A DNA stretch of 22,123 bases from a virus. Location of the stretch: the IMG/VR virus record IMGVR_UViG_3300025887_000163, positions 1-22,123 of that record. One strand, given 5' to 3'. This document shows, one piece after another, positions 8,461 through 16,820 of this stretch (the stretch's first letter is position 1; every line of letters begins with the position of its first letter). The notes under the pieces are model-generated. The model was given only the letters and a program-made list of their open reading frames with translations. It did no database searches and was not told where the DNA came from. A program made the translations under genes and the position numbers.

Positions 8461-8877
8461 TTAAGTAGAGAGGTAGGTGACTACGCGGGCTAAATAGTCA
8501 GGACACTTTTCTATACGACTTAAATACAGATTGCATGTCCTGCACAAAAGAGACCTAACTTTCCCGGTGGTATGGTCATGGTCTACAACCAGTTTTCCAA
8601 ATACATCAGAAGGCTCTTCGTTGCAGAGATAGCACTTATTGTCTTGGTCCAGCACCATTTGTTCGTAGTCTTCAAGAGTCATGTTGTATTTAGACATAAG
8701 GTGCTGACGAAGCTTACGATCAGAGTCACACACCTTACAGGAATTTAGGGCCTGATATCCTCCGTAGCACATAGCGTGCTTATATACGGAAAACTCCGAA
8801 GCTTGTTTGAACTCCCCACAGGACTTACAAACCCTGTCCTTATGTCCGGGGTGATCTGAGGGGAGTTCAATCTTCAT
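8461..8877 (-). CDS. HNH endonuclease, recombination endonuclease VII-like
   Basis: 138 aa. The C-terminal half holds a zinc-bound HNH core: C82-x2-C85, catalytic LVVDHDHTTG (D99-H100-D101-H102), then LLCRTCN with C112, C115 and N116. This spacing is that of the T4 endonuclease VII (Endonuclease_7) family. The N-terminal half has a second CxxC pair set (C17/C20 and C47/C50), probably another zinc ribbon for DNA binding. The start has only a weak GAG motif, unlike neighbouring virion genes. Free-standing HNH genes of this type are often homing endonucleases that invade late operons. Its place between coat and adaptor, weak translation signal and more AT-rich look fit a mobile insertion, though junction resolution during packaging remains possible. 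Confidence 0.92.
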   Translation of the reverse strand: MKIELPSDHPGHKDRVCKSCGEFKQASEFSVYKHAMCYGGYQALNSCKVCDSDRKLRQHLMSKYNMTLEDYEQMVLDQDNKCYLCNEEPSDVFGKLVVDHDHTTGKVRSLLCRTCNLYLSRIEKCPDYLARVVTYLST

Positions 8878-10214: not shown

Positions 10215-10289
10215 TGGCATTGGTGGAGGGATTCGAACCCCCGACAAACGGTTTTGGAGACCGCTGCTCTGACCACTGAGCTACACCCA
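10215..10289 (-). tRNA. tRNA-Trp (anticodon CCA)
   Basis: The minus strand folds as a cloverleaf: acceptor GTGGGTG/CACCAAT (one G-A mismatch at pair 3), D arm GCTC...GAGC, anticodon stem GCGGT/ACCGT with loop CTCCAAA giving anticodon CCA, and T arm GGGGG-TTCGAAT-CCCTC. The discriminator is G, the tryptophan identity base, and the 3' CCA is encoded. It sits nine bases from tRNA-Tyr, so both are probably cut from one precursor. Confidence 0.95.
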
Positions 10290-10298
10290 CGCATTTGT

Positions 10299-10381
10299 TG
10301 GTGGGGCGGGCTGGATTCGAACCAACACAGTTTACCGAGATATTTACAGCATCCGACCTTCGCCAATAGGAGAGCCGCCCC
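10299..10381 (-). tRNA. tRNA-Tyr (anticodon GTA), class II with long variable arm
   Basis: 83 bases on the minus strand with a perfect seven-pair acceptor (GGGGCGG/CCGCCCC), discriminator A and encoded CCA. The anticodon stem GGATG/TATCT (two G-U pairs) frames loop CTGTAAA, anticodon GTA. An 11-base variable arm (CGG-TAAA-CTG core) is the class II form bacteria use for tyrosine. T arm GTTGG-TTCGAAT-CCAGC is regular. The D stem is short and weak (two clear pairs). Confidence 0.95.
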
Positions 10382-13847: not shown

Positions 13848-16820
13848 CTAATACCCAAAATCCGCGTCTATTGGTTGGGGGGCGTTGTTGTGCTTTGATC
13901 CCCACGCGAAAGGATCATGCGATTGTGGCCGGGACATTACGCCATAACGGACAGAGTCGTATGCGTGGTCGTCTGTGAACCTGCCATCAATATCCTCACC
14001 ACCTTTTGGGTCTGTCGGAAGGATAGGAAGGGTAGCTACGATCTTCCTGCAGGTATTGAAGAAGATGATACCGGGGCGTTCTGTGTTGGGATCTACCCGC
14101 AAACGCTTATGGAGCTGGTTTTTACCCGCTACTCTGGCCCCATGAGAGCGATCTGACGGTCTCCAGCGGCCTCCGAGGTTATTCATCTCTTCAGCAATAC
14201 TGGGGCCTTTTTGACCCCTATTGTGCCATGTGGAGCTATCTAGGACGCCATAATCGACGTTTTCACCTCGTTCTGCCTCTGCTACTGCTATCTGCAGGGC
14301 GTCACCTTCGTGCTTTGATACGTATAACTCACGGTAAACAATGAGCATTTCATAAGCAGGGTCGATGGCGAACCAGTGAACAGCTGAAAACGAGCTATAT
14401 CCGTAGTCACAGGACCGGAACCGACGCCAGCTGGCAGGGATCTCGAACGGATCAACCACATGTACGCTGGTACGGAATTCAGGAAATGCAGCACCTTCCG
14501 TTACAGACCAATCACCCTCAAGAAGCTGGCGTCTTTGGTGTTCTGGAAGAGACAACAGACTGTTCTGGTAGCTGTCGTCCTGAATGAGATACGGGTTGTC
14601 ATACAGAGAGGCCGGGATGAACCGACGCTTGAATAGAGGCTCACCAGCTTTATCATTGGGCTGACCAGCACGAGGGTGTCCGTTGGGGTAGACGTCCGGG
14701 TGGGCCATCATCTTACCTGTATCGATATCCGTAGCCCAGAACGCCTTATTGGCTGGGGCAGGGTCGATGAACATCTGCTTAACCCACGTGTTTCCAGAAA
14801 CCCACACACTTCCGTCCTGACGGGCGATAAATGTATGTGTGTTTGGAATACCTACACAATACACATAACCAGAGTAGGGGACTAATCTCACGCTAGACTT
14901 ACGCTTGGAGTGCGTGTTCACCTCGTATTTATGGTTCCCAGTAAGAAGCTCAGTGCCACCCGACTTAGTGGCCTTGGTACTTACCTGATAGGTAACGCCC
15001 TCCCGGTTGGGACGCTGCCGTTGAGAGACGTACACAATACGACCAATCTTAATGGCCACTTCACTGAAGTCATCTGCCAATTGGTGAGACGTAGTGTAGT
15101 AGTACGAACCGGACCCGTCCCCCATCATCGCAGTACGGAAGAATTCTTTGAGAGCCTGCGTTGGAAGGCGTTTAAATTCAGCTGTTAGCCTCTTGTTTCT
15201 GCAACCGTCCCCATACATGGACATGTGTTCGTATAGAGAAGGGCAGTAGATATAGAAGTCTGTCTCAGAGAAACTATACTTATACCCCATTCTATCCAGA
15301 AGAGATGCGATATCTTCTCTACCCGCATCTTTACATTGGGAAATTACAACAGCCTTATCCCGAACACACCGAGACCCCTCAGATACATACCAGCCAACTA
15401 GCGCAGCATAATCTTCGACGCGATGTTCGTGCGGCTGCTGAAGTTTTCTCTTCCTACCCCCAGAGTGTTCAATAGAGATGTGAGATGTGTCGTCTCCAGC
15501 ATAAGATACAGACCGCAGGATGGTAGCCTGACCCGGAAGATCAGAAAAAGGAACTAGGGAGTACGAAGACTTAGGGTTATCTCTTGTACCTCCAACTTTT
15601 GCTACTTTATGGTCCTGAGTAATGGACATATTAAGCCCGCGAACCGATACTTGGACGACATCTTCATCAACCCACTGCTTGTATGTGTGGTCCACATATG
15701 TCTCAAACATGTTTCCAGAAGCATCCACAGAGTAAATAGCATCACCTGCCACCATCTCTTTAATGTCTACCCAGCCGCGATCAGGAGTAAGTACCTCACC
15801 ATGCGTAAGACAGTGTCCGGGACCGCCGGGGTTTGTTGTAGCACGTTGGTACGTAGGCAGATCAGGCGCTGTGGTACGGAGACGTGACCGCATGTAGTTC
15901 CACGCGAACGGCGTGGCATGTTGTGTAAGTTCGTCGAAGGCGATGTACGAGAAAGCCTGACCCTGATAACGCAGAACGTCTTCTGGCCGCTCAAGGTAAG
16001 TCATCCACATGTGACCACCACTAGGGAACGTCCAGCTACTCTTACGTTCAGACCACTTGGCGGCTTTGAATGCTTGTGGATACAGCTGCTGGGATTTCCA
16101 GACCAGTTCCCGAAGTTCGTCGTTTGTACGTCGTAGGATCAGGCCATTGAATTCAGGGTGATCAAAGTAACGTACGGGATCGGCCAGAAGGCCATAGGAT
16201 TTTCCGCCGCCAGCTGAACCACCATAAAGAACTTCCTGTTCACTAGCTGCCAGAAACTGGGTTTGGGGTCCGGGGTTTGGTGTGAAGATAGCATTAACGT
16301 CGTCCGATACTTGGGCAAAATCAACGTGATCATCTACGTCTGTTTCGCGGTTGATGGCCGGGGCAGCAAGTTCCGTATTCGGCTCTTGTTCCGGCTCTTT
16401 GGTGTGATCAACCCAGTTATCTAGCTTCTTCTTCTGCATCACTGCGACACGCTTGGCGTCTGCCAGTTTACGCTTCACTTTGGCCTTAGCTTTATCTGGG
16501 CCTGTCTTTGGGGCCTTAGCCCGTCGAGCTTTCTTCTGCTCTTTCTCACGTACGTTCTTGGGATCTGTCCCACGACGCTCTTTCCAGATCCGATTGATAC
16601 CTTGGTGGCTGATCTTCTTCCCGGTGGCGTTGGTCAGCCATGCGGCGACCTCACGGAGAGACATACGATTATCAATCGCATCCAGCGCCTCCTTAATGGG
16701 TCCAACCATTTCCGGGTCTGGGATCAGGACCAGCGGATCTTCCTCAGAGATCATGTAGCCGTATGCTACAGGTACGCCGGGGTGGATACGTGTCTTTGGA
16801 GGGAAGTCCCTATCGTGCAT
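13848..16820 (-). CDS. terL: Terminase large subunit precursor with N-terminal HTH extension and intein
   Basis: 990-aa precursor; 649 aa after removal of a 341-aa intein (residues 337-677). Residues ~10-80 look like a helix-turn-helix of the recombinase type (DAIDNRMSLREVAAWL ... KISHQGINRIWKERRG), then a Lys/Arg-rich linker (~85-140). The packaging ATPase has Walker A GGSAGGGKS (200-208), Walker B YIAFDE (292-297) and coupling motif ATTNP (~327-331). The headful nuclease domain has acidic residues D805 (CDYG), D861 (VLDSS) and D950/D951/D955 (TDDHAYDS). It cuts and pumps DNA through the portal. Its ATG directly abuts the terS TAA (TAAATG) with no clear ribosome site, so translation is probably coupled. 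Confidence 0.96.
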   Translation of the reverse strand: MHDRDFPPKTRIHPGVPVAYGYMISEEDPLVLIPDPEMVGPIKEALDAIDNRMSLREVAAWLTNATGKKISHQGINRIWKERRGTDPKNVREKEQKKARRAKAPKTGPDKAKAKVKRKLADAKRVAVMQKKKLDNWVDHTKEPEQEPNTELAAPAINRETDVDDHVDFAQVSDDVNAIFTPNPGPQTQFLAASEQEVLYGGSAGGGKSYGLLADPVRYFDHPEFNGLILRRTNDELRELVWKSQQLYPQAFKAAKWSERKSSWTFPSGGHMWMTYLERPEDVLRYQGQAFSYIAFDELTQHATPFAWNYMRSRLRTTAPDLPTYQRATTNPGGPGHCLTHGEVLTPDRGWVDIKEMVAGDAIYSVDASGNMFETYVDHTYKQWVDEDVVQVSVRGLNMSITQDHKVAKVGGTRDNPKSSYSLVPFSDLPGQATILRSVSYAGDDTSHISIEHSGGRKRKLQQPHEHRVEDYAALVGWYVSEGSRCVRDKAVVISQCKDAGREDIASLLDRMGYKYSFSETDFYIYCPSLYEHMSMYGDGCRNKRLTAEFKRLPTQALKEFFRTAMMGDGSGSYYYTTSHQLADDFSEVAIKIGRIVYVSQRQRPNREGVTYQVSTKATKSGGTELLTGNHKYEVNTHSKRKSSVRLVPYSGYVYCVGIPNTHTFIARQDGSVWVSGNTWVKQMFIDPAPANKAFWATDIDTGKMMAHPDVYPNGHPRAGQPNDKAGEPLFKRRFIPASLYDNPYLIQDDSYQNSLLSLPEHQRRQLLEGDWSVTEGAAFPEFRTSVHVVDPFEIPASWRRFRSCDYGYSSFSAVHWFAIDPAYEMLIVYRELYVSKHEGDALQIAVAEAERGENVDYGVLDSSTWHNRGQKGPSIAEEMNNLGGRWRPSDRSHGARVAGKNQLHKRLRVDPNTERPGIIFFNTCRKIVATLPILPTDPKGGEDIDGRFTDDHAYDSVRYGVMSRPQSHDPFAWGSKHNNAPQPIDADFGY
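14790..15812 (-). mobile_element. Intein with LAGLIDADG homing endonuclease inside terL
   Basis: In frame and translated with terL. It begins at Cys337 (CLTHGEVLTPDRGW, splicing block A), has block B TQDH (T401-x-x-H404), endonuclease helices ALVGWYVSEG (~473-482, acidic E481) and FFRTAMMGDGSG (~560-571, acidic D568), then block F YVYCVGIPNTHTFIA and terminal VSGN with Asn677, followed by Thr678 of the C-extein. The penultimate residue is Gly rather than the common His. All essential splicing residues (Cys1, block B His, terminal Asn, Thr+1) are present, so splicing is likely. Both LAGLIDADG acids are present, so homing activity is possible. Insertion is in TTNPGGPGH/T, a highly conserved ATPase motif. 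Confidence 0.95.

Follow-up and report, generated by a model that had tools for sequence, protein, structure and literature searches.

An insert in the terminase large subunit gene (terL) of a virus, here described, is very probably a mobile class 1 intein that would excise itself from TerL and whose homing endonuclease is expected to cut empty terL alleles. The element, which carries a LAGLIDADG endonuclease, is 341 aa long and occupies residues 337-677 of the TerL ORF (positions 14790-15812, minus strand), as delimited from predicted structure and from intein-free relatives. Positions are those of the window, the whole stretch of DNA analysed (22,123 bases), which corresponds to the complete IMG/VR virus record. 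The source is a marine-type bacterial virus.

The minus strand of the window carries a podovirus-like head-and-tail module including a TerS candidate and genes for TerL, portal, a scaffold-like protein, the major head protein, tail proteins, tail fibre and endolysin. The TerL precursor, called as an ORF of 990 aa with the intein in frame (13848-16820, minus strand), matches the PHROG terminase large subunit families phrog_979 (E 3e-57) and phrog_2 (E 5e-27) and Pfam Terminase_6N. Its closest database relatives are the TerL proteins of Roseobacter phages CRP-3, CRP-235, CRP-212 and CRP-738 (about 61% over the aligned parts), followed by those of Rhizobium, HMO-2011-type and Pelagibacter phages. 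By alignment to CRP-3 TerL, the N-extein (336 aa, 15813-16820, minus strand) comprises a helix-turn-helix-like N-terminal extension and the ATPase core; the C-extein (313 aa plus stop, 13848-14789, minus strand) holds the remaining ATPase and the nuclease domain. Walker A (GGSAGGGKS, 16197-16223, minus strand) and Walker B (AFDEL, 15927-15941, minus strand) are uninterrupted, and the coupling-motif loop TTNPGG (residues 328-333, 15822-15839, minus strand) is broken downstream, after GH. The first 90 or so residues of TerL (16551-16820, minus strand) weakly resemble the helix-turn-helix regions of HTH_32 and IS630 transposase, a feature common to CRP-3, CRP-235 and CRP-738 that may provide added DNA recognition. 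Elsewhere in the module, a free-standing endonuclease VII-type HNH gene (8461-8877, minus strand; Pfam Endonuclease_7, E 3e-22), possibly another mobile element, is placed between the major head gene and a tail gene, and genes for tRNA-Trp (CCA) and tRNA-Tyr (GTA) lie at 10215-10381 (minus strand) between the scaffold-like and major head genes.

The anatomy of the insert is that of a class 1 intein. The N-terminal splice nucleophile Cys1 (C337, 15810-15812, minus strand) is present in 49 of the 51 aligned members of the family described below. Block B reads TQDH (15609-15620, minus strand), with Thr B:7 kept in 50/51 and His B:10 in 51/51 members. Blocks F and G, YVYCVGIPNTHTFIARQDGSVWVSGN (14790-14867, minus strand), contain Cys F:4 (50/51), a His equivalent to F:13 and a Gly-Asn end (residues 676-677). 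The class 1 arrangement of a C-terminal Asn followed by Cys, Ser or Thr is seen in N677 and T678, the latter being Thr+1, the first C-extein residue (14787-14789, minus strand); the penultimate His, usual in class 1 inteins without being obligatory, is replaced by Gly676. The coordinates, both ends, the TxxH of block B and the two LAGLIDADG acids (E481 and D568) given in a preliminary description made from the sequence alone thus proved exact. Its statement that the insert lies directly after the coupling motif is right for the end of the NPGGPGH loop, but TTN itself precedes the splice site by 6 residues. Class 3 inteins lack Cys or Ser at position 1 and are marked by Trp B:12, Cys F:4 and Thr G:5; membership of this class was ruled out by the presence of Cys1, Val at B:12 and Ser at G:5, only Cys F:4 being shared. 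Since F:4 is most often Asp and next most often Cys (PMC4031507), the Cys at this position is ordinary.

An AF2 model of the intein, built from the 51-row alignment of relatives, has a mean pLDDT of 94.9. Along its full length it matches the TliVMA inteins (Z 26.5; 18% identity in 304 aligned residues); it also matches the HINT folds of the NpuDnaE and Mtu RecA inteins, and its endonuclease region matches I-DmoI (Z about 14-14.5). The whole-length TliVMA match together with that to I-DmoI settles the intein fold. The HINT match that the preliminary description had asked for was found in the predicted structure, whereas profile libraries recognise the insert only faintly: Pfam Intein_splicing gives E 0.0069 and a score of 16.6 bits, the cut-off being 35.8, and TIGR01443 scores 16.0 against 15.6 on the insert alone. 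TerL is a common marker for classifying tailed phages, and because the window intein falls below the Pfam cut-off, terminases of its group are readily assigned a wrong size or misread when viromes are annotated. The alignment of the 649-aa extein with intein-free TerL proteins, also proposed earlier, gives a clean join at GH/x-W (a slash marks the splice junction): the spliced protein shows no gap close to the junction when aligned with the TerL of CRP-3 (64%), CRP-235 (66%), CRP-738 (64%) and HMO-2011 (58%), and the motif T[TS]NPGGxGH-x-W stands at the intein site in 82 intein-free relatives. The fold match along the full insert, the splice residues and the gapless junction together bear out its identity as an intein.

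From this anatomy and from homologs, it may be proposed that the intein is translated within TerL and folds as a HINT splicing domain bearing a two-motif LAGLIDADG endonuclease. Excision would involve Cys1, the Thr and His of block B, Asn341 and Thr+1, and would restore the coupling loop in a terminase of 649 aa. Judged from its sequence, the window intein should splice, and a putative dependence of DNA packaging on this splicing is a reasonable proposition. During co-infection by two phages, the endonuclease would be expected to cut intein-free terL at NPGGPGH/W, and the gap would then be repaired from the intein-bearing copy. The insertion loop is presumably needed by the motor and conserved among very different terminases, and would thus offer a widely shared target while making imprecise loss costly. 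Published mycobacteriophage TerL inteins provide precedents: their representatives spliced, and cleavage of intein-free alleles was shown for two (PMC5050341).

Relatives of the window intein occupy the TerL coupling loop in about 65 viral or prophage contigs, a number that includes near-identical copies from different samples. They were collected by scans of viral and genome contigs followed by a profile search of the loci retrieved, and the counts of loci are lower bounds because the scans require exact peptide patterns. Two insertion positions are used: GH/[ST]W, in 45 loci and in L008, a contig truncated within the intein, and NPxG/SGHxW, located 3 residues upstream, in 19 loci. The two positions cluster in the intein tree, suggesting few site shifts, the trees being short (130-350 columns). 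Carriers include L178, which is a prophage-like stretch of Dokdonella fugitiva, and L179, a metagenome contig of Blastopirellula; no isolate phage with the family in its coupling loop appeared among the matches listed in a tblastn search of a phage collection with four queries.

Family members also occur elsewhere in TerL, at the P-loop (L016), near Walker B at a GH/SW sequence (L139) and, as a diverged form, near Walker B in L164 and L165. The site of the L139 intein (L139:1960-2955), YHGH/SWPW, resembles the coupling-loop sequence GPGH/SWVK, and the coupling loop of the same protein is empty (TTNPYGPGHNVVK); this intein may have jumped off target within its own gene. The L164 terminase (L164:757-2874) contains two diverged representatives of the broad family, the first of which, near Walker B, apparently ends in Gln rather than Asn (SVSGQ/SAEF). 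Several inteins may also accumulate in a single terminase: apparently three in L129 and four each in the ORFs L116:1276-6552 (1759 aa) and L174:1397-5773 (1459 aa), at the P-loop, near Walker B, in the coupling loop (window-intein family) and in the nuclease domain. The coupling-loop insert of L174 is a mini-intein. Pfam scores are near the cut-off for both nuclease-domain inserts and for the Walker B insert of L174 and weaker for that of L116; both P-loop inserts have HN/T ends and no Pfam intein match.

The LAGLIDADG domain spans intein residues 128-285 (14958-15431, minus strand), as delimited by the I-DmoI match at model residues 129-286. Its first motif, AALVGWYVSEG (15375-15407, minus strand), contains the catalytic Glu E145 (ORF E481), and its second, FFRTAMMGDG (15114-15143, minus strand), the catalytic Asp D232 (ORF D568). 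Among 46 full-length family members, the Glu is kept in 44 and the Asp column in 45. Between window-type copies, dN of the endonuclease domain is 0.24-0.34, with a dS that is saturated or at least 2, which argues that the domain is under purifying selection. Such selection fits a working endonuclease, though folding constraints could also produce it. It is conceivable that the intein still splices while its endonuclease is no longer active, and that it persists merely because precise loss is rare. The family does contain endonuclease-less mini-inteins of 150-155 aa (six loci: L132, L133, L174-L177) and members with altered catalytic motifs (L172 and L173, in which the second motif is broken), and no recent transfer is visible. 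This alternative is nevertheless unlikely for the window copy, which combines both acids, a full-length domain and a confident fold with low dN against saturated or nearly saturated dS. The earlier wording, "apparently intact", is upheld by the two acids, the I-DmoI fold and the dN values. Endonuclease-bearing, broken-endonuclease, mini-intein and empty-site states, together with a 3-residue shift, coexist in one conserved gene; with transfer between lineages added, the family offers a single-site system for testing homing models.

A family member in L115 (L115:3646-4680) has Pro at position 1, Cys at F:4 and an SGN/S end, and is either dead or equipped with an alternative nucleophile. A phage origin has been proposed for class 3 inteins, and the absence of Cys1 with retention of Cys F:4 in L115 raises the idea that the coupling-loop family could lie close to their source. 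The full reading, in which the window intein is part of an extensive and sparsely annotated phage family specialised in the coupling loop, with Cys1 and Cys F:4, Gly-Asn as standard and a full homing cycle, and situated near the class 3 source, is on the whole improbable.

The preliminary description took the Gly that replaces the penultimate His as a feature that might slow splicing or make it conditional. In a rival reading the intein is a conditional switch, whose non-canonical Gly-Asn end would hold splicing back and restrict the onset of packaging to certain conditions. Its placement in an essential motor loop, the treatment of an unusual penultimate residue as modulatory by Kelley et al. 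(PMC5050341) and the stress responses of other inteins are compatible with such a role. However, Gly is the norm of the family (50/51 aligned members, mini-inteins included); it is thus no defect, marks no special state of the window copy and gives no evidence of a brake on splicing, and no regulatory sequence feature was seen at the window intein. Inteins lacking the penultimate His are known to splice (references in PMC4031507). Moreover, the Bethlehem RDF intein, which like that of the window is a class 1 phage intein with penultimate Gly but which resides in a host protein other than TerL, splices well in its Gly form and much more slowly once His is restored, the His mutant accumulating precursor (PMC5050341); this is the single published test on a phage intein of that kind. 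The suggestion of slowed splicing is not supported by these comparisons, and a conditional switch is very unlikely. As highly conserved natural Gly-Asn inteins, the members of this family provide a good test of Asn cyclisation without a penultimate His.

Within the family, a window-type subgroup starting with CLTHGEVLTP is found on five contigs: the window, L007, L008, L010 and the fragment L111. Full or partial copies of the same intein subtype, 73-75% identical, occupy the same site in L007, L008 and L010, and L111 shows the final 30 intein residues followed by the same junction. Recurrence of the intein and its junction on four further contigs excludes chance or a single misassembly. With these independent copies, an intact extein frame, every splice residue kept and a confident fold, a degenerate remnant in a dead terminase or an assembly chimera, as the weak Pfam and NCBIfam scores might suggest, can be virtually dismissed. 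A scan with the L010 intein as query revealed no new window-type contig. Another intein, unlike the first, is represented by its tail in the P-loop of L010 (L010:2-619; VVTHN/SYAMLADPMRY).

The inference of a mobile intein receives further support from the history of this subgroup. The L008 N-extein is 76-78% identical to those of L012, L123 and L126 and 60% identical to that of the window. For the L008 intein the order is reversed, with 73% identity to the window intein and 36-37% to the inteins of L012, L123 and L126. Accordingly, the four window-type inteins group together in the intein tree (100/100 support), and in the N-extein tree L008 groups with L012, L123, L126 and L130 (96/92). A tree in which the L008 N-extein was constrained to join the other window-type carriers was rejected (p-AU 2.4e-5), and grouping with the window and L007 alone gave p 0.006 (AU test). 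This conflict shows that the subtype crossed terminase lineages at least once, though not recently: among the four window-type copies, no recent transfer or homing was seen, synonymous and third positions being saturated or nearly so. The window and L007 are more alike in their exteins than in their inteins, as expected of vertical descent since their split. The intein-free kin of each window-type carrier are only distant, and the collections contained no near-identical pair with and without the intein.

The residue following the intein is Thr in 4/4 window-type carriers with a visible junction (codons ACG, ACA, ACT and ACT). At the 82 empty sites, the +1 residue is Ser (30), Gly (26), Gln (19), Met (3), Ala (3) or His (1) and never Thr, the rows being related, so that this is a pattern and not a test. 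Where +1 is Gly, Gln, Met, Ala or His, the allele offers no splice nucleophile, so that successful homing would need to overwrite at least that codon.

Inteins in TerL, inteins in the TerL coupling motif and inteins with penultimate Gly have all been published. The insertion-site family of the window intein is apparently undescribed: no published description of the exact site or of the family, and no paper on inteins in HMO-2011-type phages, was found in a literature search that covered few subscription journals. Other systems share parts of the arrangement. The TliVMA, PhoVMA and PI-PfuI inteins have the same HINT and LAGLIDADG architecture (Z 26.5, 23.8 and 20.7), but these and I-DmoI, which is intron-encoded, show 13-19% sequence identity to the window intein and come from archaeal hosts and other host genes. 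The Mic1 cyanophage TerL contains two inteins, one with a homing endonuclease domain; like the window TerL it has an intein in the ATPase domain, and unlike it an additional one in the nuclease domain (PMC7156551). Neither appeared as a family relative among the matches listed in the tblastn search of the phage collection. The best match in a phage record is the TerL intein of Gordonia phage GMA6 (L005; 27% identity over 341 aa), which likewise has an SGN end (SGN/S) but is distant in the tree and adjoins Walker B (YKFQ/...SGN/SAEYQFIGFDEL). The mycobacteriophage TerL inteins a-g of Kelley et al. (2016) lie, like that of the window, at functional motifs of the ATPase domain, and TerL6-f is inserted in the coupling motif (PMC5050341). 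In the mycobacteriophage terminase Phlyer gp6, taken here as a TerL6-type example (the named TerL6-f representative being Chandler), the insert lies immediately before the Thr of the motif and has a His-Asn end (LIQ/C...SHN/TRW), whereas the window intein is inserted at a different point and ends in Gly-Asn (TTNPGGPGH/C...SGN/TW).
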